A DNA stretch of 30,827 bases from a virus, in the IMG/VR virus record IMGVR_UViG_3300031603_000019, positions 1-30,827 of that record, one strand, 5' to 3'. Under the pieces are notes generated by a model. The model was not told where the DNA came from, ran no database searches, and saw only the letters and a program-made list of their open reading frames with translations. This document shows, one piece after another, positions 6,279 through 29,109 of this stretch (positions within the stretch are counted from its first letter, which is position 1; every line of letters starts with the position of its first letter). A program made the position numbers and the translations under genes.

Positions 6279-9200
6279 TTAATATCCGTTATATACAGGT
6301 TTCCCATATTCTGGTTGTGCTTTACCTAATATTTTTAAAGTAATTGATACATCAACTCCCATTGGTAATTCACCGATAAAGTCAGTAGAACCTAATAGTG
6401 AGATATCCCAAGGAACATTATCTGACATTGTGTATGATAATGCATCTATGTATGCGAGTTCATTATTAAAGAGACTACCTAATCTAAATTTGATTATAGA
6501 ACCTTGGTAACCAGCAGAACCACTATCAGCAGTACCGTAAGTTGGCATTGTCATTGATGCCAATCTTCCTAATTTTGCATATATTGGTTTCATTTCGACA
6601 CGAGATGTCGCATATACCTGTATGTTGAATCCTAGATTCCGGTCGAACGAGTTATATTGCCATGCTTTATCAGCTCTACCATTATATTTATACCCAGACC
6701 AACTTGGAGTAAATGTATCGGTAATCCCTTTGACTGCCCCTCTGAATTGAATCTTACTACCGCCATCTATATCCGTAAACCATAGATGAACTAAATCGTT
6801 ACCATTATCATATATGTCATCTATATCTGATGCTTGTATTTTATCCCATCTAGATTCATTTCCAGCAAATGTTTTGTCAACATTGTGCCACGTATATCTA
6901 TCCTCATCCTGTTTTACTAAACCAGGACTTGGGAAGTGAACCCGATTCTCTATCTTATATTTGCTGTAATTTTCATTGTTGCCTCTTGTGTTATTATCAG
7001 TTACATCATCGAAAAGTAAATCTCTGAAATCTATTGTTCTACCGTTACCAGTACCACGATCTGGGATTTTACCATATGCAATTGTTTGATAATCTTGTAT
7101 TACTTCTTTCTTATCCTGGTAGTTGTTCCCCTTCTCCACACCACCCGTTGGGTTATTGGATTCGGAAATATGTGTAGCTACACCGAAGAATTTAAGTTTT
7201 TCTTCGTCTTTTATTCCTTCTTCTATAGCTTTAGCTGCTACCTCTGTATAAGTTTTATCCTTTTCAAAGGTATATGGGTTTATGGGTTTTTGGTATTTAG
7301 ATACGAGCGTTTGTGTTTTTAGGAGAGCTTTTTCGTTCGCATACCGCTGTCCTGGTCCATCAAATGTATTTACATACCGACGAGTTCCACCCCAACCAAT
7401 ACCATATAGTGAATTAAATCCACCGGGATGTTCTTCTGATGGGAATCGTTGAGTAATACCTGTAAACTTTTTTAATATGCCCAGATCCCCCTCATACATA
7501 TTTTGTAATTTGTCTTTATAATCACCCAGTAAGATTCGTGTTGCAAATGAGTTCTCATATTGGAATGTATCATCAACTAATGGTATAAGACCAGGTCGTT
7601 GTGCGTGTAAACCGACGTGTTGGCCACCTACTGCTGCTAATAACCCAACAGGTGTCCATACTTTACCGTACTTCTGACTCGATTGCATCCCAGCTTGTCT
7701 AATTCCCCAAAGAAGTCCTTTAACAGACAACATCCAAGCTCCGATTCTAGCAACATCTACCAATGCCCTTACTGTTGATGTTATTACACCACCACGTATC
7801 ATACCATCATCGAATGTTACACCACCGATACCCCAATTTTGAGGTTCTCCTTTTTTAATACCCTTTCGTTGGATTCCTCTAAGGATTAGTGGGTGTCTGA
7901 ATAGTGTTAATCCGGTATTGTATGCATCCTCCCTTAAATTGTACTTAGCGTACATCAAATCTAAAAATGATGGGGAGTTTCTTTGCTCCATTGTAGTACC
8001 AATACTCTTATACGATGCTTCATAGTTTGTACTATCAGGTGTATATTGTTGTACATTACCACTCTTCGTTTTGGATTTAAATTCTTTATACCCAGTACTG
8101 AATGATAATGCTTCATCCGGAAGTTTATAATTACTAAATTTGGATATTGAACTAATCCAATGTTCCCCATTTTGACCTACACCAAAGAATTTTGATGGTG
8201 CTCTATGGAATAAGTTTGGAGTAAATCCAGCAGCCGTTAAACCATCAGGAAAGAAGTTAGTGCTACCTAACTCACCAAATAATGAGGTAGAACCATTAAA
8301 TACCGTATTATCAGGATTAACACCTACATATTTACTTGCATCAACCCCACCAAACGGTGAAGTAAACCCAGTTGAGTGAATATCTGAAAAATAGTTAACT
8401 GATGATGGTGTTGTTTCACCTAAAAAGTTTGGTGAACTACCAAATGTGTTTGGAGTGGTTTCTCCTAAGAAATTAGAACTGTTGTTAGCTGGGTTAGGTG
8501 TTGTTTCTCCTAAAAAGTTAGAACTGTTGTTTGCTGGAGTTGGTGTTGTTTCTCCTAAAAAGTTAGAACTGTTGTTTGCTGGAGTTGGTGTTGTTTCTCC
8601 TAAAAACTGAGAAGTGTTGTCAGCTGGGTTTGGGGTTGTTTCTCCTAAGAAGTGAGATGAGTTGTCAGCCGGATTCGGTGTTGTTTCTCCTAAAAACTGA
8701 GAAGTGTTGTCAGCTGGGTTTGGGGTTGTTTCTCCTAAGAAGTGAGATGAGTTGTCAGCCGGATTCGGTGTTGTTTCTCCTAAAAACTGAGAAGTGTTGT
8801 TTGCCGGATTCGGTGTTGTTTCTCCTAAAAACTGAGAAGTGTTGTCAGCCGGATTCGGTGTTGTTTCTCCTAAGAAATTAGAACTGTTGTCAGATGGGGC
8901 TGGTGTTGTTTCCCCTAAGAACTTCTCTGATGTATCTGGTTTAGTTGGGTTAGTTTCACCTAAGAACTTTTCTGATGTATCTGATTTAGTTGGGTTAGTT
9001 TCACCTAAATAACGTTCTTCCAAGCTCATTGGCTTAGTATTAGTTTCACCTAAGAACTTCGTTGAGTTATCCATTGGTGTAGGGTTAGTTTCACCTAAGA
9101 ACTTCGTTGAGTTATCCATTGGTGTAGGGTTAGTTTCCCCTTTGAATTTATCACCTTGCTTTATTGGAGTAGTATCTGCACCATTTTTGTTAGGTGTAGT

Positions 9201-9356
9201 TTTTGCTATAGCTACTTTTGGAGTAGATTCTAGCATACCACCAAGTGGTGTTTGATTACCACCCTTATTAATTGTACCTGTATCCCTATCAGCCAAAGGA
9301 GTTTTCTTTGGTATCCTAAAGTCAGATAATATTGATTTTAAATCTTTTAAAGCCAT
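6279..9356 (-). CDS. Large baseplate/tube-junction protein with N-terminal 15-aa repeats
   Basis: 1025 residues in three parts. Residues 1-70 are basic and Thr/Pro-rich. Residues about 71-326 are 17 tandem copies of a 15-residue unit, early copies with LGETNPTP and later ones with FLGETTPNPADNTSQ. Residues about 330-1025 are a large Gly/aromatic-rich region whose last 200 residues contain SWSGYKYNGRADKAWQY, YATSRVEMKPIYAKL and a closing LPMGVDVSITLKILG. The C-terminal pattern resembles the beta-barrel proteins that cap or start the tail tube (T4 gp48/gp54), and the position right after the tape measure matches the T4 order 29-48-54. That assignment is inference. The start has a SD-like AGGTGAC, and the gene begins 49 bases after the tape-measure stop. 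Confidence 0.65.
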   Translation of the reverse strand: MALKDLKSILSDFRIPKKTPLADRDTGTINKGGNQTPLGGMLESTPKVAIAKTTPNKNGADTTPIKQGDKFKGETNPTPMDNSTKFLGETNPTPMDNSTKFLGETNTKPMSLEERYLGETNPTKSDTSEKFLGETNPTKPDTSEKFLGETTPAPSDNSSNFLGETTPNPADNTSQFLGETTPNPANNTSQFLGETTPNPADNSSHFLGETTPNPADNTSQFLGETTPNPADNSSHFLGETTPNPADNTSQFLGETTPTPANNSSNFLGETTPTPANNSSNFLGETTPNPANNSSNFLGETTPNTFGSSPNFLGETTPSSVNYFSDIHSTGFTSPFGGVDASKYVGVNPDNTVFNGSTSLFGELGSTNFFPDGLTAAGFTPNLFHRAPSKFFGVGQNGEHWISSISKFSNYKLPDEALSFSTGYKEFKSKTKSGNVQQYTPDSTNYEASYKSIGTTMEQRNSPSFLDLMYAKYNLREDAYNTGLTLFRHPLILRGIQRKGIKKGEPQNWGIGGVTFDDGMIRGGVITSTVRALVDVARIGAWMLSVKGLLWGIRQAGMQSSQKYGKVWTPVGLLAAVGGQHVGLHAQRPGLIPLVDDTFQYENSFATRILLGDYKDKLQNMYEGDLGILKKFTGITQRFPSEEHPGGFNSLYGIGWGGTRRYVNTFDGPGQRYANEKALLKTQTLVSKYQKPINPYTFEKDKTYTEVAAKAIEEGIKDEEKLKFFGVATHISESNNPTGGVEKGNNYQDKKEVIQDYQTIAYGKIPDRGTGNGRTIDFRDLLFDDVTDNNTRGNNENYSKYKIENRVHFPSPGLVKQDEDRYTWHNVDKTFAGNESRWDKIQASDIDDIYDNGNDLVHLWFTDIDGGSKIQFRGAVKGITDTFTPSWSGYKYNGRADKAWQYNSFDRNLGFNIQVYATSRVEMKPIYAKLGRLASMTMPTYGTADSGSAGYQGSIIKFRLGSLFNNELAYIDALSYTMSDNVPWDISLLGSTDFIGELPMGVDVSITLKILGKAQPEYGKPVYNGY
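8385..9149 (-). repeat. 17 tandem 45-bp coding repeats
   Basis: In-frame repeats encoding the 15-aa units of the 1025-residue protein. The upstream five copies encode GETN-type units and the next twelve encode GETT-type units. Within them, 8587-8766 consists of two identical 90-bp copies (each one SQ-type plus one SH-type unit), and the identity runs on into the next copy to about 8801. This indicates recent duplication by slippage or unequal recombination. Confidence 0.9.
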
Positions 9357-9404: not shown

Positions 9405-12122
9405 TTAGCTTGGTGGTCTCATACTACCCTGCTGTGCTGCCATTCTGGATATACGGGATACAACCTTACCATCTATAGTAATAAGTATTGGCTGTGATTG
9501 AATATCACCTCTTAATCCTTTTAATTCATTTAATAGTGCTTTTGAATCAGAATCACCATCCTTTGATGATGATTTTTCTGCACCACCGAATAACCCACTG
9601 ATACTGTCTGCTATACTAATTAAAGATGGTGCAAGTAGTACGGTTACTGCACCTAATCCGGTAAGAGCTAATAATCCAGGTAACCCTACTGTTCCGATAG
9701 CCGCTAAACCAAATGCAACTCCCATAAGTGCTGGACCTAATAAAGCCATCGCCCCTACATTATCGAAAGTTACTGCACCCATTAGAGTAACGAATCCACT
9801 TACGACTGCTGTAATGAGTGGTGGTATTTCTTTGAATACAGCTAAAAATATGTCACCGAATACTTTTAGATATGTTGATGCTAACTCCAAACTGTAACCG
9901 AGTGGTACCATGGCCAATGCTAAAGCCCCTATCAGTAAGATTCCAATTCCCGAAAATTCAACAGATGCACCAAGAGCGGATAACCCACCCGCAAGTCCGG
10001 TCAAACCTAAACCGGCAGCTTCTCCTAATAAAGCGACTCCTGCTAAGAATATTAATGATGGTATTGCTAATGCTCCTGCTACTGCAAATGCGGTGAGTGC
10101 GCCAGAACCTACGAATGTTGGCGCCATAAGCATGAGTCCACCTGCAAGTTTGGTAAAGTTCTTCAGTAATGCTGGTAAATTTATTCTACCAAATGTTAAT
10201 AAAAACATTAATGATGGTATTGCTAGTGTACCTGCTACTGCAAATACGGTGAGTGCTCCTGAGCCCGTAAATGTTGGCGCCATAAGCATGAGGCCGCTTG
10301 ATAATTTGGTGAAGTTCTTCAGTAATGTTGGTAAATTTACTTTACCAAATATTGATAAGAATATTAATGATGGTATTGCTAGTGTACCTGCTACTGCAAA
10401 TGCGGTGAGTGCGCCAGAACCTACGAATGTTGTTGCCATTTTTATTAACCCTCTAGCTAATTTAGAGAAGTTTAAGTAGAGTGATGTTAAGGCTGAATTA
10501 CCCATAAATAATATGAATGGTATTGCTGGTAATGCTATTATAAATGCAGGTCCGGCCAATGCAACTGCTGCGATTCCGGCAAATACCCTACCAGTACCCA
10601 TTTTTTTTAATCCCGATGCTAAATCTTTTAATCCAGCACCTGCACCTTGTCCTGCTGTTGCGGGAGATGTATCTACTTTTGGTAGTGCACCTTTTGCTTT
10701 ATCTGCTACGTTACCTTTACCTGTGAAAAGTTTACTGATTCCGAATTCACCAGTCTGCATTCTTGATATAATCATTTGTTGTGCTCCGAATGCCAACAAA
10801 CCTGTGGTTGCTTTTTTGATACCACCCGGTATAATAGCCCAACCATCAATCAAGAATTGAAGAGCTTTACCAGCAGAACCTGCATTTTCGAGTTTGGCCA
10901 TTTGTTCTTGCTTTTGGATTACATCTGCTAACTGATCGGCTGTTAATCCGATTCCTTTTGCGAATACCTCCTGCCCAACCGGCCCCATATCATTAAATGC
11001 TTCAGCTGATAGGTTTAGTGTTTTGAATTGTGCCAAAATCCCATCCATCTTACCAGTCTTTTGGAATTCAAGCCCCGCTGCAACCATACCCTGCATACCT
11101 CGGATTTGCTCTTTGGATAGTTGACCTTGTAAGATAACCCTAGCTTTTGCTTGAGCTTTCATTGTACCCTCAATATCCATCATACTCTCAGCCATTCCTT
11201 TAGCTAAAGAAAGGGTTAATCCTTGTTTGTTTAATTCTACGGTCTTTTTAGCTAGTAATTTGATTTCTTTTTCGGTTGCTCCAACTAACATTCTCTGTTG
11301 GCCTACTAAATCTTTGAATACTACTGATGATAATACACCGGCATCTTTTGACATAGTTTTTATACTATCAGTCATGTCCTGTGCGTTACCACTAGCCATT
11401 TCAAATGATTGAACTAATTTCGCTGAACCTGCACCATCGCCTGTAAGTTTGGTTAATTCTACAACATTATTTCTAATATCATTCGTTATACCGGCAGCTG
11501 TTCCAAATGTGGTAACCATATCCTTAGTAGCTTTGGTTAATTCTGTTATTTTGAATTTTGAAAATAATGCACCCGTGCCAATATTTTGCATACCTAATGC
11601 AAATGCCTCAGCTGAACCTACACCTAGTTCTTTATTTAAATCGTATGCTAGGCCTAATGTGTTTTGGAATGCTGCTGAAATTTGCTCTGTTAATCCCTTT
11701 AGGAGAGCCATTGATGCACCGATATTAGTACCGGCTTTAAGCATATCACCCATTGTACCAAGACTAGCATAAAGATCATCTTGTGCTTTTTTGGAGAATG
11801 TAGCCCGTTCATCTTCAACTTTTGCTACTTCTATATTTTGTTCTAGGACTTTCTTTGCCCCTGCTAACCGTTTTATGAGTTCTTTATTTAAATCTTTACC
11901 CGTTACGACTTGCTCTAATAACAAATCGCCAATAGCTTTATCTACATCTAATAATTTTAGAGATGCAGTCTTTTGAACCATTAAAGCATCAATTAGGTTA
12001 TTTTTTGTTTTTAGCCCCTCAACAGATAACCTGTTACCAGTTTCAGTAGCCTTTAGAAGTGTCTGAGTTAGATTGTATTCTTTTTGGAGTGCGTCTTTAC
12101 GTTTATTTAAATCATCGGCCAT
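9405..12122 (-). CDS. Tail tape measure protein
   Basis: 905 residues. The N-terminal 150 are charged and helical (coiled-coil-like), followed by a long Ala/Gly-rich helical middle. Residues about 480-850 contain many hydrophobic segments able to span a membrane, and the C-terminus is short and charged. Length, composition and place between the tail tube/chaperone genes and the baseplate genes identify a tape measure. It would fill the tail tube, set tail length and contribute to the DNA channel at ejection. T4 gp29 is 590 residues, so a longer tail is expected. Residues about 553-708 are three tandem 52-residue repeats. The start is preceded by AAGGATTGATAT and lies 10 bases after the stop of the 78-residue protein. 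Confidence 0.85.
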   Translation of the reverse strand: MADDLNKRKDALQKEYNLTQTLLKATETGNRLSVEGLKTKNNLIDALMVQKTASLKLLDVDKAIGDLLLEQVVTGKDLNKELIKRLAGAKKVLEQNIEVAKVEDERATFSKKAQDDLYASLGTMGDMLKAGTNIGASMALLKGLTEQISAAFQNTLGLAYDLNKELGVGSAEAFALGMQNIGTGALFSKFKITELTKATKDMVTTFGTAAGITNDIRNNVVELTKLTGDGAGSAKLVQSFEMASGNAQDMTDSIKTMSKDAGVLSSVVFKDLVGQQRMLVGATEKEIKLLAKKTVELNKQGLTLSLAKGMAESMMDIEGTMKAQAKARVILQGQLSKEQIRGMQGMVAAGLEFQKTGKMDGILAQFKTLNLSAEAFNDMGPVGQEVFAKGIGLTADQLADVIQKQEQMAKLENAGSAGKALQFLIDGWAIIPGGIKKATTGLLAFGAQQMIISRMQTGEFGISKLFTGKGNVADKAKGALPKVDTSPATAGQGAGAGLKDLASGLKKMGTGRVFAGIAAVALAGPAFIIALPAIPFILFMGNSALTSLYLNFSKLARGLIKMATTFVGSGALTAFAVAGTLAIPSLIFLSIFGKVNLPTLLKNFTKLSSGLMLMAPTFTGSGALTVFAVAGTLAIPSLMFLLTFGRINLPALLKNFTKLAGGLMLMAPTFVGSGALTAFAVAGALAIPSLIFLAGVALLGEAAGLGLTGLAGGLSALGASVEFSGIGILLIGALALAMVPLGYSLELASTYLKVFGDIFLAVFKEIPPLITAVVSGFVTLMGAVTFDNVGAMALLGPALMGVAFGLAAIGTVGLPGLLALTGLGAVTVLLAPSLISIADSISGLFGGAEKSSSKDGDSDSKALLNELKGLRGDIQSQPILITIDGKVVSRISRMAAQQGSMRPPS
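10000..10470 (-). repeat. Three tandem 156-bp coding repeats in the tape measure gene
   Basis: The same segment (for example the bases encoding AIPSLI/M) recurs at 10363, 10207 and 10051 with an exact spacing of 156 bases. Each unit encodes 52 residues of the type LLKNFTKLxxGLMLMAPTF followed by a hydrophobic GALTAFAVAGxLAIPS stretch. Boundaries are approximate; the last unit diverges at its C-terminal end. Confidence 0.85.
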
Positions 12123-12132
12123 ATATCAATCC

Positions 12133-12369
12133 TTAGTATAGTTTAACACCTGCTTTTTTCATTGCTATAATTGCATTATTCAAATCCCGTAAATACTCAC
12201 GTTCCTTATCGTTTGGAGCTGATTCTATAGTATCCTCAATGGATTTTTTTAAATCTGTTATCTTTTTATCAAGTCGTTTTCGTTTTCTGTTAAAGATATC
12301 AAATATCCCATCAGAAAGATTGTTCTCTTTAAAAAGTTCTTTCAACTTAGATTTTGTTATTGTTGCCAT
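12133..12369 (-). CDS. 78-residue coiled-coil protein of unknown function
   Basis: Highly charged and helical, with a basic centre (FNRKRKRLDKKITDLKKSIE, about residues 26-45) followed by acidic helices. No recognised family. It lies between the tail chaperone and the tape measure, so a role in tape-measure folding or tail initiation is possible but only positional. It has a good ribosome site (GAGGAACATCAT) and its own ATATTTATA element 22 bases upstream of the start. Confidence 0.7.
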   Translation of the reverse strand: MATITKSKLKELFKENNLSDGIFDIFNRKRKRLDKKITDLKKSIEDTIESAPNDKEREYLRDLNNAIIAMKKAGVKLY

Positions 12370-12391: not shown

Positions 12392-12400
12392 TATAAATAT
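12392..12400 (-). promoter_or_regulatory. ATATTTATA candidate late promoter element for the gene at 12369
   Basis: Exact nine-base match on the coding strand, 22 bases upstream of the ATG, just downstream of the hairpin at 12405-12427. Confidence 0.5.
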
Positions 12401-12404
12401 GTAA

Positions 12405-12427
12405 ATACCCAACATTTCGTTGGGTAT
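12405..12427 (-). terminator. Perfect 9-bp hairpin after the frameshift extension
   Basis: ATACCCAAC and GTTGGGTAT pair perfectly around a 5-base loop, starting 14 bases after the stop codon of the +1-frame extension (12441-12443). No long T-run follows, so it may stop polymerase inefficiently or protect the 3' end of the RNA. Its position right after 12441 supports that frame being the true end of the chaperone gene. Confidence 0.5.
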
Positions 12428-12440
12428 CTCATTATCTTTT

Positions 12441-12635
12441 TTATTTAGCGTTTTTCATAGCCTTATCATGTTGCTTCTGTTCTTCAGTTTTGAATTCAAT
12501 TATCTTACCGATATAGAATATTCTAGACCAAATTGGTAGATTATATACATCAGTAAATGTGAATCCACCGTTGCCATGATAGATTAAATCGAAGATTTGG
12601 GAATGTAATATTTTTCGGTAGTTAGGACTTAGGCC
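12441..12635 (-). CDS. +1-frame extension of the tail-assembly chaperone (no start codon of its own)
   Basis: 64 sense codons from GGC (12635) to TAA (12441-12443) in the +1 frame relative to the 294-residue gene. No ATG, GTG or TTG occurs in frame until codon 60 (an ATG five codons before the stop), so it can only be made by frameshifting (or by a 6-T version of the homopolymer). The product has a folded-protein composition: SPNYRKILHSQIFDLIYHG, then TFTDVYNLPIWSRIFYIGK and a charged helical tail. The expected fusion is about 354 residues (290 + 64). Tail-assembly chaperones of many long-tailed phages (lambda G/GT) are made as such a short and extended pair from the gene between tube and tape measure. 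Confidence 0.75.
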   Translation of the reverse strand, partial: GLSPNYRKILHSQIFDLIYHGNGGFTFTDVYNLPIWSRIFYIGKIIEFKTEEQKQHDKAMKNAK

Positions 12636-13506
12636 AAAAAAACCCCACTTCCATCGGTAGAAGCATATCCCTCCTTTCCCCAGTTTCCTCAGATATAAAT
12701 TCGTAAATTAAGTCAATATCCGGAACAACTGAATTCATATGTGCTCTTAGAGCTTTAGAATCTACTGCGAATAACTCATTGTCTACAAACCGATTAATTT
12801 CAGTCTGTTCATAATCACCATCAACCGATAAAATCATATTTTTAAGTCTGATAGTTAAATCTTTAGAAGTTAAATCCTTTAATTTTCTACCAGCTTTTTC
12901 AGCTGCTTCAATTTGATGTTTAACCTTACGTTCTTTCGATTCAGTCATTGCGATAAACGTAACTTCCCTTTTCGAATTAGGTAATGTAAATTTAAACTCA
13001 TTCCTATTAAGTTCTATTTGATTAGCCCCATCATAATCAGCGTTTTCAAATTGAGTTAAATCAATTGTTTCTTTCTGTTTAAGGCCTGGTGATGTTGGAT
13101 CATCAATCTCCACATCATAATCTTTACCGTATCCTAAAACACGCGCTGCAATCATAATTGCGTTCTTATCACCCTGCACTAAATCCGAATATTTGATAGC
13201 TACACCATCACCATTACTAATGATTAATGCTTGGAATAATCTATCCAATACACTACCATCTTTAATGAATGATTGAGTAGTAAGGATATCCTCCTCTTTA
13301 GCTGTCATATATTTCATCTCTACCTTACCCGTTGAAAGTGGATTATCTTTTGGATAAATCAACCCATTTGATGGTAAGTCGATTATTTCCGTTGGGAATT
13401 TATAATCGGATACTTGTTTCTGCTCATATTGCTTTTTAGCGAGCTCAACCATATCTTCATTGGATATGTTTGGAGTATAATCGTCTTGTAATTTCTTTTG
13501 ACTCAT
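12622..13506 (-). CDS. Tail-assembly chaperone / gp26-like protein, short form
   Basis: 294 residues in the zero frame. A disordered N-terminus is followed by IIDLPSNGLIYP (41-52) and KVEMKYMTAKEED (61-73), a signature I associate with T4-like proteins annotated as baseplate hub subunit gp26. The rest is helical and charged. The position between tail tube and tape measure is the classical position of the G/GT-type tail chaperones that hold the tape measure before tube assembly. The gene ends ...GFFWPKS-stop across a T7 run that allows entry into the +1 frame (see 12634-12646). An internal AAAGGAGGG followed by an in-frame ATG (12666) lies near the end, so a very short internal product is also conceivable. 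The precise T4 equivalent is uncertain. Confidence 0.7.
   Translation of the reverse strand: MSQKKLQDDYTPNISNEDMVELAKKQYEQKQVSDYKFPTEIIDLPSNGLIYPKDNPLSTGKVEMKYMTAKEEDILTTQSFIKDGSVLDRLFQALIISNGDGVAIKYSDLVQGDKNAIMIAARVLGYGKDYDVEIDDPTSPGLKQKETIDLTQFENADYDGANQIELNRNEFKFTLPNSKREVTFIAMTESKERKVKHQIEAAEKAGRKLKDLTSKDLTIRLKNMILSVDGDYEQTEINRFVDNELFAVDSKALRAHMNSVVPDIDLIYEFISEETGERRDMLLPMEVGFFWPKS
12634..12646 (-). other. Probable +1 programmed frameshift site
   Basis: Zero-frame codons read GTG GGG TTT TTT TGG. With the second TTT in the P site, a one-base forward slip re-pairs on TTT and brings GGC into the A site, opening the 64-codon extension. The G-rich GTGGGG ends three bases before the slipping TTT, like the internal Shine-Dalgarno element three bases before the +1 slip codon of bacterial prfB. 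The -1 frame is closed at once by TAA at 12629-12631, so +1 (or -2) is the only productive shift. Confidence 0.65.
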
Positions 13507-13636: not shown

Positions 13637-14125
13637 TTAGTACTGTAAGATTGCGTAATCATATACAAGTGTTAACTTTACTTCTGCAACTGCTTCTCCA
13701 GTATAATCCATATCTGAGAATGCGGCTGTTTTGATGTATGCACCTTTAAGTGTCCATTCTTCTACCTTATCTCCAACAGGACCCAAACTGTTAAATGTGA
13801 TATCTTTTTTGTAGAAATCAGAATAACCATCTCTTCCAGTTACAGATTCGTGATGTAATCTTACCCATTCCATACACGCTTGTGCTGCTGATGGTACTAC
13901 TGGGTCGTATAATGTAACTGATAATTCACTCCACTCACTTCTACCTTTTACATAACGTTTAACGTTAATATGATCGATAGTTACTTTACCATTTGTTATT
14001 TCAGGTCTACCTGCTGCTTTAATTAAGTATGCTGGGATTCCCTCTATATACATAATGAATCTGTTCGACATTTTCGGTTCGAACGATGTGAACATTATTT
14101 CTGTTGGGTCTATTAGTTGTGCCAT
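13637..14125 (-). CDS. Tail tube protein (gp19-like)
   Basis: 162 residues, almost the length of T4 gp19 (163). The sequence opens EIMFTSFEPKMSNRFIMYIE, then IPAYLIKAAGRPEI, and ends in beta-strands (AVAEVKLTLVYDYAIL) typical of the tube-fold proteins that stack as hexameric rings around the tape measure. It lies directly after the sheath gene, as in T4. It has its own candidate promoter, an A-rich leader with a GGAG ribosome site, and its own terminator, which fits the high level needed for a tube subunit. Confidence 0.9.
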   Translation of the reverse strand: MAQLIDPTEIMFTSFEPKMSNRFIMYIEGIPAYLIKAAGRPEITNGKVTIDHINVKRYVKGRSEWSELSVTLYDPVVPSAAQACMEWVRLHHESVTGRDGYSDFYKKDITFNSLGPVGDKVEEWTLKGAYIKTAAFSDMDYTGEAVAEVKLTLVYDYAILQY

Positions 14126-19714: not shown

Positions 19715-20392
19715 TTATAATCCAAATCTGGATTTAATTGCGTTATAATTCTGAGTTATATCAGATTGCGTTAATGCGATATCATATATGGATACATTTG
19801 TTATATTACCATCAAAGTAATACCCATCACCTCTATTAGCTATTTTTGTACTGACACCATTCCCTACATATTGTGCTGCTGGTATTGATGTTGTGTTTTC
19901 TGCTAACGAATTACCGTTTACATATAATGTAATTGATGTTGATGGGATATATACACCTACAATGTTATACCAACGTGATTCATCGATAGTTAGTGTGCCT
20001 GCTGCTAACTTTAGAGTTGATGCATTCTCTGCAATATAAAATTTCCAAGAATTACTATTATTAACACCCATTAGATACCCTCTATCTGCTGCTAAAGCAC
20101 CTACTCCGGATATGCTGGTTGATGCTGATTTTCCTTTAAACCAAAATGATATAGTCATTGCCCCAGTTGGTTTTATTATTCCACAATCTACGTAATCATT
20201 TACACCATCAAACACAATACTACCATTATTAGCTGAATTAAACGTTGGTCCATTTGTTAATGTTCCGTGATTTGAATTACCACTTAGGTCAGTCCATACA
20301 GTTCCGGAACCCGGATACGATTTATGGTTTCCGGCATCTAATGCGAATATTAAACCATCTGTTACTATTTTTGGGGAATAATGAAATGCCAT
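19715..20392 (-). CDS. LamG/concanavalin-fold virion protein, paralogue 3
   Basis: 225 residues. The N-terminus GLIFALDAGNHKSYPGSGT, followed by WTDLSGNSNHGTLTNGPTF and IVFDGVNDYVDCG, is the signature of LamG_3-type jelly-roll domains, which bind glycans. The C-terminal half holds WYNIVGVYIPSTSITLYVNG. It is the third of three tandem paralogues, with a 3-base gap after the second. Such proteins in tail clusters are probably fibre tips or decorations that bind host-surface sugar; the ligand is unknown. Confidence 0.8.
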   Translation of the reverse strand: MAFHYSPKIVTDGLIFALDAGNHKSYPGSGTVWTDLSGNSNHGTLTNGPTFNSANNGSIVFDGVNDYVDCGIIKPTGAMTISFWFKGKSASTSISGVGALAADRGYLMGVNNSNSWKFYIAENASTLKLAAGTLTIDESRWYNIVGVYIPSTSITLYVNGNSLAENTTSIPAAQYVGNGVSTKIANRGDGYYFDGNITNVSIYDIALTQSDITQNYNAIKSRFGL

Positions 20393-20395
20393 AAC

Positions 20396-21079
20396 TTATA
20401 TAAACCTGTGTTTTGTTGCGTTGAAATTTTGAGTGATTTCTGCTTGCGTTAATGCGATGTTATACATAGAAACCTCAGCTACACTTCCATCTTCATAGTT
20501 AGTAGATCCATCTACATTAATTCGTGTGGGTGATGGATTCCCAACGTATTGTGCTGCTGGGATGTCATCTGTGTGCTCAAATAGATTAGTACCATTTAGG
20601 TATATTGTGATTGATGTTGATGGGATAAATACCCCAACAACATTGTACCATAGTGATGTATCTGTGGTGTGCCATCCGGATATATAAACTGTTGTTGCAG
20701 ATGCGACTGGTATGGTAAAGTTGAGAGATATTCTACCGTTTGGTGTATCAGTTTGAGATCTCAATGCGTAACCGGCAATTGCACCCCTACCGGCTGTGTG
20801 AGTATTTATATGCACATTACCCTTATACCAAGTTGATATAGTCATTGCTCCGGTAGGTTTTATTGCCCCACAATCCACCCAATCATTTGTTCCATCAAAT
20901 ACAAGGTTTCCAATTTTATCGGTACTGAATGTAGGTCCGCTTCTTAATGTTCCATGATTTGAATTACCACTTAGGTCAGTCCATGTAGTTCCACTACCTG
21001 GATATGATTTTTTGTTTGCTGCATCTAATTTAAGTATTAAACCATTGGTTACTATTTGTGGTCCACCGTATGTTCCCAT
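20396..21079 (-). CDS. LamG/concanavalin-fold virion protein, paralogue 2
   Basis: 227 residues with GLILKLDAANKKSYPGSGTT, WTDLSGNSNHGTLRSGPTF, LVFDGTNDWVDCGAIKPTGA and WYNVVGVFIPSTSITIYLNG. It is closest to paralogue 3: both share the CG-x-IKPTGAMTIS segment and the IPAAQYVGN segment. Its ATG overlaps the stop of paralogue 1 (TAATG). It probably acts in host-surface binding like its neighbours; distinct variable loops may give distinct ligands. Confidence 0.8.
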   Translation of the reverse strand: MGTYGGPQIVTNGLILKLDAANKKSYPGSGTTWTDLSGNSNHGTLRSGPTFSTDKIGNLVFDGTNDWVDCGAIKPTGAMTISTWYKGNVHINTHTAGRGAIAGYALRSQTDTPNGRISLNFTIPVASATTVYISGWHTTDTSLWYNVVGVFIPSTSITIYLNGTNLFEHTDDIPAAQYVGNPSPTRINVDGSTNYEDGSVAEVSMYNIALTQAEITQNFNATKHRFI

Positions 21080-21771
21080 TATATAAACCTATTTTTTGTT
21101 GCGTTATAATTTTGAGTTATTTCTGCTGATGTTAATGCTTTGGAGTAATGTTTAACTGATGCAATATCACCATTAAAATAACTAGATGCATAATTAGCTC
21201 TACCAACCCAAACTTCTTGAGCGTAATAAGTTATAGTCCCCACCACTGTCGATGATGTTATAAGATTACCATTTATATAAAGTTCTTGCCTACCACTTTC
21301 ATAAACACCAACTACATTATACCAAGTATTTGTAGTGAATTGCCCGATATCTGTTGCCAATGAGGTGTACTCACCATTACTATTCCACCCAATGGAAAGT
21401 TTGTTAGATGCTGATGTTCTCATATGAGTACTGTAGTATGGTGCTGAATGAACTGTGTTATCATAACTGAATATTACGTTATCTGCTGCTAGTGATGATA
21501 ATCTAATCCACGCATCAACTGCCCACGTTTGAATATCGAACTTATTCTGACCATTTGTTACTACGGCCACAAAATCATTAGAACCATCAATTCTAATATT
21601 ACCACTATTATTTGAATTAAATGTAGGTCCGTTCTTTAATTCGCTATCATAACCATTACCACTCAGGTCATTCCACACAGTTCCACTACCTGGATATGAT
21701 TTACGGTTTGCTGCATCTAACATTAATGTTAAACCATCGGTTACTATATCAGGACCTGAAGTACCTGCCAT
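21079..21771 (-). CDS. LamG/concanavalin-fold virion protein, paralogue 1
   Basis: 230 residues with GLTLMLDAANRKSYPGSGTV, WNDLSGNGYDSELKNGPTF and WYNVVGVYESGRQELYINGN. It keeps the same fold signature but is the most diverged of the three in the central strands (DIQTWAVDAWIRLSSLAADN instead of the IKPTGAMTIS segment). Its C-terminus ALTSAEITQNYNATKNRFI is shared with paralogue 2. It overlaps the stop of the preceding gene by one base (TAATG), so the four genes from 22022 are translationally coupled. Confidence 0.8.
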   Translation of the reverse strand: MAGTSGPDIVTDGLTLMLDAANRKSYPGSGTVWNDLSGNGYDSELKNGPTFNSNNSGNIRIDGSNDFVAVVTNGQNKFDIQTWAVDAWIRLSSLAADNVIFSYDNTVHSAPYYSTHMRTSASNKLSIGWNSNGEYTSLATDIGQFTTNTWYNVVGVYESGRQELYINGNLITSSTVVGTITYYAQEVWVGRANYASSYFNGDIASVKHYSKALTSAEITQNYNATKNRFI

Positions 21772-24573: not shown

Positions 24574-24658
24574 ATATTATTTCCTTTATTGCGGTTGGTT
24601 ACTAGATTTTAAAAGCCCACTTCCCCCTTAATTGGCGGCCAACATAAAGCTGTTCCTA

Positions 24659-24667
24659 TATAAATAT
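24659..24667 (-). promoter_or_regulatory. ATATTTATA candidate late promoter element for the S74 tail fibre gene
   Basis: Exact match, 85 bases upstream of the ATG at 24573, the longest leader of the set. The leader includes a GC-rich patch with TTGGCGGCCAA (24632-24642). Confidence 0.45.
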
Positions 24668-24688
24668 GAGATATTTTAGTATTAAACT

Positions 24689-24718
24689 AAAAAACCCCCA
24701 TCATTACGGTGGGGGTTT
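24689..24718 (-). terminator. Intrinsic terminator after the small gene at 24727
   Basis: On the minus strand AAACCCCCA pairs perfectly with TGGGGGTTT (plus a G-T and a G-C pair inside), followed by a TTTTTT run. It lies 9 bases after the stop codon and separates this transcript from the tail fibre. Confidence 0.85.
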
Positions 24719-28524: not shown

Positions 28525-29109
28525 TTAATCTTTCTTAATTATATTATTTGATTTGATGAACCGACCCTTACTATCTTTTTTAAGATTTCGATTCTTTAAC
28601 CAAACACCACGCTCTTCATATAACCTAATTCCATCAACTGAACCGTTCCTATCGATATACCATTCTAATGAGAATCTACCCTTAGCTTTTTGTTTTTGTT
28701 TTGCTCTAGCTTCATCCGAATGAGTTTTTCCGTACATACCATTACCTTTGCCTGATGTAGCGTTACTCATAGTTTTAAGGTATTGTTGATATTCAACCGA
28801 ATCTCGTCTATCTTTGTATGGAAATTCACCACCAGCGCCGGTTGGTACTGAGTTATATCCATTTTTATAAGAATCGTATGCAGTAATGAATTGTTCTTCT
28901 ATGATAGGTGCTGATTTATGTGATACGTTACATATAATTTCTTTAGTTAAAGTATCCCATCCATATTTTCTAATAGCTTGGTGGATTTTGTATGTACCTT
29001 TGCCAGATTCCGCAATGTTCTTATGTTCACTCATTCGTTTATTGTAGTTTTTAGTCCTACCAATATACACCTTACCACTTGGTGATGTTATTTTATATAT
29101 TACATCCAT
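28525..29109 (-). CDS. Free-standing GIY-YIG homing endonuclease
   Basis: 194 residues. The catalytic domain has VIYKI (3-7) and VYIGRT (14-19) with Arg18, followed by KRMSEHK (24-30) with His29 and the metal-binding Glu in IIEEQF (71/72). A NUMOD3-type DNA-binding motif follows (SGKGNGMYGKTHSDEARAK, about 119-137), then a basic C-terminal part. The order nuclease then NUMOD3 is that of T4 Seg-type enzymes. It probably cuts phage relatives lacking the gene near the capsid-phoH junction. It lies after the capsid terminator without an ATATTTATA element but with a strong ribosome site (AAAGGAGAATTAT). No intron is seen around it. Confidence 0.95.
   Translation of the reverse strand: MDVIYKITSPSGKVYIGRTKNYNKRMSEHKNIAESGKGTYKIHQAIRKYGWDTLTKEIICNVSHKSAPIIEEQFITAYDSYKNGYNSVPTGAGGEFPYKDRRDSVEYQQYLKTMSNATSGKGNGMYGKTHSDEARAKQKQKAKGRFSLEWYIDRNGSVDGIRLYEERGVWLKNRNLKKDSKGRFIKSNNIIKKD

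Follow-up and report, generated by a model that had tools for sequence, protein, structure and literature searches.

Known tail assembly chaperone systems

The frameshift that gives rise to the tail assembly chaperones G and G-T is conserved in long-tailed phages, with T4 as the exception, and in the haloarchaeal virus HSTV-2 it is very likely in the +1 direction (reviewed in PMC5009743). The actinobacteriophage annotations forming the PRFect training set contain 350 forward versus 2368 backward sites, and CCC and UUU rank as the next most slippery codons at the prfB-type position (PMC10885494); moreover, a UUU_CGN +1 motif was reported in influenza A and in plant amalgaviruses, and it was proposed for the HF1 haloviruses (PMC7230728).

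In T4, the short and the long form, gp26 and gp51, are produced by two separate paralogous genes, located on opposite strands. PMC10885494 credits Vladimirov, Gautam and Davidson (2022, Virology 566:9-15) with T4-like phages in which a short gene is accompanied by a long, fused one, and the Adele paper (PMC12846349) cites the same work for −1 signals of the poly-T kind in the chaperone genes of T4-like phages; the 2022 paper proposed that T4-like phages use a mechanism other than the conserved frameshift. The gp51 proteins of cyanophages and marine vibriophages are devoid of the first ~200 residues and resemble the C-terminus of gp51 only (Sullivan et al. 2010, PMC3037559); in S-PM2, gp51 begins 3 bases past gp26, and the long gene after it occupies the place of the tape measure.

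The window, that is, the whole stretch of 30,827 bases of viral DNA analyzed here, carries genes for a major capsid protein of the gp23 type and a tail tube protein of the gp19 type. On the evidence of sequence comparison, its gene at 12622-13506 encodes a tail assembly chaperone of the T4 gp26 type, the phage itself being T4-like, and this single gene very probably yields, through a net +1 shift, both a short gp26-like form and a rare gp51-like long form. A large T4-like group thus appears to frameshift, in the +1 direction and at a site lacking a recognised stimulator, whereas the 2016 review had T4 as the exception. The open-access literature searched contained no prior report of a +1 version in T4-like chaperones; the −1 shift of cyanophages, described below, is to be taken as probably known, since Vladimirov et al. 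2022 is cited for −1 poly-T signals. The original prediction considered a +1 shift unusual, which holds within the gp26/gp51 family; among tail chaperones generally, however, it is less so, given the forward sites counted above and the haloarchaeal myoviruses.

Organization of the locus

The features of the locus are the following:

12622..13506, minus strand: frame-0 gene of 294 amino acids, predicted short form of the tail assembly chaperone, T4 gp26-like (phrog_150, Foldseek)
12622..12624, minus strand: frame-0 stop codon TAA, closing the short form (sequence)
12631..12642, minus strand: putative shift site TTTTTTTGGCCT, read TTT TTT TGG CCT in frame 0 and TTT TTT GGC CT in the +1 frame
12441..12635, minus strand: +1-frame extension, 64 codons plus the stop (12441-12443), three predicted helices, putative gp51-like C-terminal domain of the long form
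12399..12432, minus strand: predicted terminator-like hairpin, directly past the extension (folding energy)
13637..14125, minus strand: tail tube protein, T4 gp19-like, upstream neighbour (phrog_4542, E=1.3e-22)
9405..12122, minus strand: probable tape measure protein of 905 amino acids, downstream neighbour (position, length, synteny)

The 3′-end of the gene reads GAA GTG GGG TTT TTT TGG CCT AAG TCC TAA on the minus strand, the run of seven T's (T7) occupying 12636-12642. The +1 frame extends for 64 codons, from GGC at 12635 to the TAA at 12441-12443; none of the 24 open codons that precede the site in this frame is ATG, GTG or TTG, and the first downstream start codon is found near the end of the 64 codons. 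The −1 frame shuts immediately (TTT TTT TTG GCC TAA), and the hairpin at 12399-12432 has a folding energy of −16.4 kcal/mol (z −6.4). The TAA at 12622, the 64-codon +1 extension without a usable start, the hairpin following it and the closure of the −1 frame within a few codons, all described in the original prediction, were thus found again.

The gene sits between the tail tube gene, identified by profile, and the probable tape measure gene, as originally proposed and as expected of a G/GT type chaperone; for the latter gene the family search gave no significant match, and the assignment relies on synteny with Flavobacterium phage immuto, where the tape measure gene is annotated. The annotations of immuto, SP-15 and LIS04 show the order tail tube, chaperone gene and tape measure. 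No second chaperone copy was seen in the 30,827-base fragment. The locus shares with lambda G/GT, and with further tail chaperones that involve a −1 shift, the position between tube and tape measure and the frameshifted C-terminal extension; it differs from them in the direction of the shift and in a core for which no similarity to solved structures was detected.

The extension is separated from the probable tape measure gene by a gene of 78 amino acids without a clear family (12133-12369, minus strand). Within the probable tape measure gene, a 156-base tandem repeat is present in 2.5 copies (10044-10439), and the number of repeats could affect tail length. A 48-base stretch at 24657-24705 shows 82% identity with the intergenic sequence just 5′ of the chaperone gene, and is perhaps a repeated regulatory or terminator element.

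Relationship to gp26 and gp51

The frame-0 product matches phrog_150, named "baseplate hub", with E=3.8e-8. Both phrog_150 and PF12322 contain T4 gp26 and gp51, which are related to each other in BLASTP (E 2e-6) and cover positions 14-235 and 13-280, respectively, of the 282 of phrog_150. The window protein itself did not reach PF12322; this family was reached by its relatives from LR756508, SP-15 and the Streptococcus phage. Thus, the window and T4 have in common the protein family (phrog_150, and PF12322 for the relatives), the short and long forms and a corresponding C-terminal domain, while differing in gene arrangement, T4 having two genes and the window one gene with a +1 shift.

Addition of the +1 extension stretches the phrog_150 match from 233 to 274 of the 282 positions in Mel-JY01 and from 233 to 273 in LR756508, with small gains in score (46 to 48.1 and 65.8 to 68.6 bits, respectively); for the window, the fused protein gains little over the core (34.1 to 34.8 bits). 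The extension alone had no family match in PHROG and Pfam. In hhalign, single comparisons linked the window extension to the cyanophage gp51 extension (E=1.7e-7) and the cyanophage extension to the C-terminus of T4 gp51 (E=4.7e-12), the direct comparison of the window extension with the T4 gp51 family, also a single one, being weak (E 0.046). Hence, the kinship of the extension with gp51, for which the original prediction suggested an HMM search, is found by way of cyanophage gp51 and only weakly in direct comparison, and through this link the long form of the window would carry a gp51-type C-terminal domain.

Core and extension were modelled separately with AF2, each in its own DNA frame. The core model (pLDDT 86, pTM 0.78) has among its best BFVD matches in Foldseek the SP-15 baseplate hub and T4-like baseplate hub assembly proteins; no similarity was detected to solved structures in the PDB, the HK97 chaperone included (HK97 gp13 fold, 2OB9: E 5.7, prob 0.08). 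The extension was modelled as three helices (pLDDT 90), and in BFVD it matched small phage proteins only, none below E 0.001; the accession of one of them, A0A343LED7 of Leptospira phage LE4, adjoins A0A343LED6, a match of the core from that same phage.

Conservation of the site and of the extension

A scan with the frame-0 protein found relatives encoded by at least 595 of the 600 candidate stretches listed; a second, profile-based scan found them in at least 598 of the 600 listed, the loci being 42-77% identical to the query. The sequence TTTTTTTGGCCT was present in 80/80 loci kept among the first-scan matches listed. Sequences with the site from both scans were tabulated together with two isolates and the window, giving at least 105, of which 79 remained after thinning by shared 4-mers; the presence of the site in 105/105 is partly by construction, the set having been filtered for TTT[TC]TTT preceding a Trp or Tyr codon and Pro.

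The alignment of the site across relatives, suggested in the original prediction, gave TTTTTTT in 76/79 sequences and TTTCTTT in three (L084, L234 and L249), each with a +1 extension. The complete TTTTTTTGGCCT occurs in 73/79 non-redundant sequences, and the remaining sites are TTTCTTTGG (two sequences), TTTTTTTGGCCA, TTTTTTTAC, TTTCTTTAC and TTTTTTTAT (one each). The frame-0 stop is the seventh codon counted from the first TTT in 51/79 and the ninth in 25/79. Among the readable loci of the unfiltered second scan (a few loci with a misplaced stretch start were unreadable), L252 is the sole exception; here TTC TTC TGG replaces T7 and the extension lies in the −1 frame, which reflects either a sequence error or a different shift site.

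The codon columns tested were the 99 with at least 75% amino acid conservation. Zero synonymous variation was found only at F289 and F290 (TTT in 79/79 and 76/76, respectively), a result that the filter of the set favours and with which the unfiltered second scan agrees, L252 apart; the next most constrained column has an entropy of 0.34, and TTT accounts for 76% of the Phe codons elsewhere in the gene.

A misread or misassembled T run had been regarded as the main alternative, homopolymers being error-prone. This explanation was rejected and its probability is practically nil, as the same site is shared by more than 100 divergent contigs from many samples, some of them with TTTCTTT and thus without a homopolymer, and by isolates, namely Mel-JY01 with T7 and immuto, which has no homopolymer.

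The extension is under purifying selection as protein. Its median pN/pS is 0.23 (median pS 0.69, pN 0.16) over 227 pairs with 70-98% identity, which share ancestry and hence are not independent; in the same pairs, the substitutions at codon positions 1, 2 and 3 are 2761, 2315 and 6525. These values and the codon-position pattern indicate that selection acts on the +1 frame as coding sequence.

Such a frame could also encode a separate small protein that has a start of its own, as cyanophage "gp51" and the extension of Mel-JY01 are annotated. Some ATG, GTG or TTG is indeed present upstream in the +1 frame in 52/79 sequences, so that the lack of a separate start, if extended from the window to its relatives, holds only for the window and 26 others (27/79). 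However, in most of these 27 the first downstream start falls at about codon 32 and would cut the domain; furthermore, an own start leaves unexplained both the invariant TTT TTT T and the FF joint shared with the −1 relatives, and this origin of the extension is extremely improbable.

Distant relatives and other reading frames

The +1 extension is found in cultivated phages as well. In Microcystis phage Mel-JY01, T7 is followed by a +1 extension that is annotated as a separate gene; in Flavobacterium phage immuto, the +1 extension comes after TTT CTT TGG, and the availability of this phage in culture makes the idea testable. The extension is in the +1 frame also in LR756508 (AAC TTT CTA), in Bacillus phage SP-15 (TTT TTT CAC) and in Streptococcus phage GXN1 (TTC TTT CGT), while Listeria phage LIS04 reads TTT TTT AGT. 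Among these distant relatives, the +1-type sites include CTT_TGG (immuto), TTT_CTA (LR756508) and TTT_CGT (Streptococcus phage). A +1 tail chaperone shift is likewise predicted for the haloarchaeal myoviruses (HF1 group and HSTV-2), at TTT_CGC in the HF1 group; unlike the window phage, these are archaeal viruses.

Other members of the family have the extension in the −1 frame. In Agrobacterium phage Atu_ph07, Pseudomonas phage PA5oct and LR756511 it follows T_TTT_TTC, and in the cyanophage-like loci (L094:10472-11364 and L095-L174) a nnT TTT TTC joint with a −1 extension was observed in all of the ~50 distinct sites; a GAGGG-like sequence is common upstream, and in one subgroup a stem-loop containing a single compensatory pair lies downstream. 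Cyanophage gp26-gp51, as in S-PM2, therefore resembles the window in having a core and a homologous downstream extension joined at FF codons, and differs in the −1 frame, the T_TTT_TTC site, the GAGGG-like element and the annotation of the short gp51 as a separate gene. These data suggest that the short cyanophage gp51 is a frameshift extension of gp26 and not a separate gene, which is of consequence for how numerous marine phage genomes are annotated; in cyanophages, the shift appears to be −1, at T_TTT_TTC. On balance, it is probable that a single T4-like chaperone family uses three interchangeable routes (+1 shift, −1 shift and gene duplication) around a fixed Phe-Phe joint, and that the +1 shift takes place at UUU_UGG, without Shine-Dalgarno or RNA structure, in a large and mostly uncultivated phage group.

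Proposed mechanism

From the conserved site, the reading frames, the selection on the extension, the homology and the gene order, we infer that shifting occurs in the +1 direction and with low efficiency. Most ribosomes would end at the TAA at 12622, producing the short gp26-like form, while a minority would slip +1 on UUU U, the P-site tRNA-Phe re-pairing while the A-site waits on UGG; the shifted ribosomes would then read 64 more codons, giving a long form with a C-terminal domain equivalent to the one in T4 gp51. If the roles are as in lambda G/GT, the short form would cover the tape measure, and the long form, the rarer of the two, would recruit tail tube subunits. The original prediction of a short and a long tail chaperone generated by a net +1 shift is well supported by the occurrence of site and extension in at least 105 sequences and by the low pN/pS; as judged from sequence, the +1 shift appears well ahead of the alternatives, short of proof.

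A −2 slippage, with the tRNA-Phe of the second UUU moving back by two bases to pair with U2-U4, would enter the same frame with one extra Phe. It has precedents in Mu and some RNA viruses (PMC5009743), allows perfect re-pairing at the window site and would account for the unvarying first TTT; however, it is unlikely, the re-pairing being impossible in the same-family distant relatives L085 (ACT) and L088 (TCT), in which the extension frame is unchanged. In a survey of re-pairing, +1 was possible at every site, and −2 was equally good at the window and other T7 sites and impossible in LR756508 and GXN1; in the CTT variants, slipping either way entails a mismatch at the first position. In the clade of the window, +1 and −2 are not told apart by pairing alone, while for some distant relatives only +1 is compatible. 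A +1 slip confined to the second codon does not account for the invariance of the first TTT; slipping on either codon may be possible, or there may be a contribution from −2 or polymerase slippage.

In the case of transcriptional slippage, RNA polymerase would drop one T or add two on T7, and the altered mRNA would be read in frame. The T7 run at 76/79 sites and the invariance of the first TTT are compatible with this event, although the +1 extension is kept where such a homopolymer is missing, i.e., in the three TTTCTTT sequences (L084, L234, L249), LR756508 and the Streptococcus phage; seven T's are short for efficient polymerase slippage, and this origin of the long form is highly unlikely.

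For the +1 shift on the ribosome, a known counterpart is the prfB site (CUU_UGA), with which the window shares (C/U)UU followed by U and an A-site codon beginning with UG; in prfB this codon is the stop UGA, whereas in the window it is the sense codon UGG, with no conserved Shine-Dalgarno. The GTGGGG three bases ahead of the slip codon, taken in the original prediction for a prfB-like Shine-Dalgarno, is present in the window but is not conserved; 13 different codons precede the site, SD-like 4-mers occur in 14/79 sequences, and no Shine-Dalgarno is conserved near the site across the 79. No RNA structure was found at the shift site (z about 0.1). An inverted repeat, GGCCT...AGGCC, was observed directly 3′ of T7 in some +1 lineages (L196, L201 and L202) and not in the window, and is possibly a lineage-specific stem. 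GGAGAGA..ATG, located ~27 nt upstream, was considered as a signal and rejected: it is kept in near relatives and lost in distant ones, and for this reason it is probably coding.

Window genes are generally weak in Shine-Dalgarno sequences (4-mer in 13/31), and one contig was binned with a Flavobacteriales genome, the only match to a cellular genome and a suggestive one only; on these grounds, a Bacteroidota host is possible.

Other genes of the window

A 1025-amino acid gene (6279-9356) contains 45-base tandem repeats at 8448-9141, which code for a repeated "FLGETTPNPADN"-like motif. Three adjoining similar genes are located at 19715-21771 on the minus strand; a Laminin_G_3 (concanavalin-like) domain was found in both of the two that were scanned, and their products possibly have a role in decoration or adhesion. 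Finally, a GIY-YIG homing endonuclease with a NUMOD3 motif is encoded at 28525-29109 on the minus strand, between the PhoH-like and the major capsid genes.
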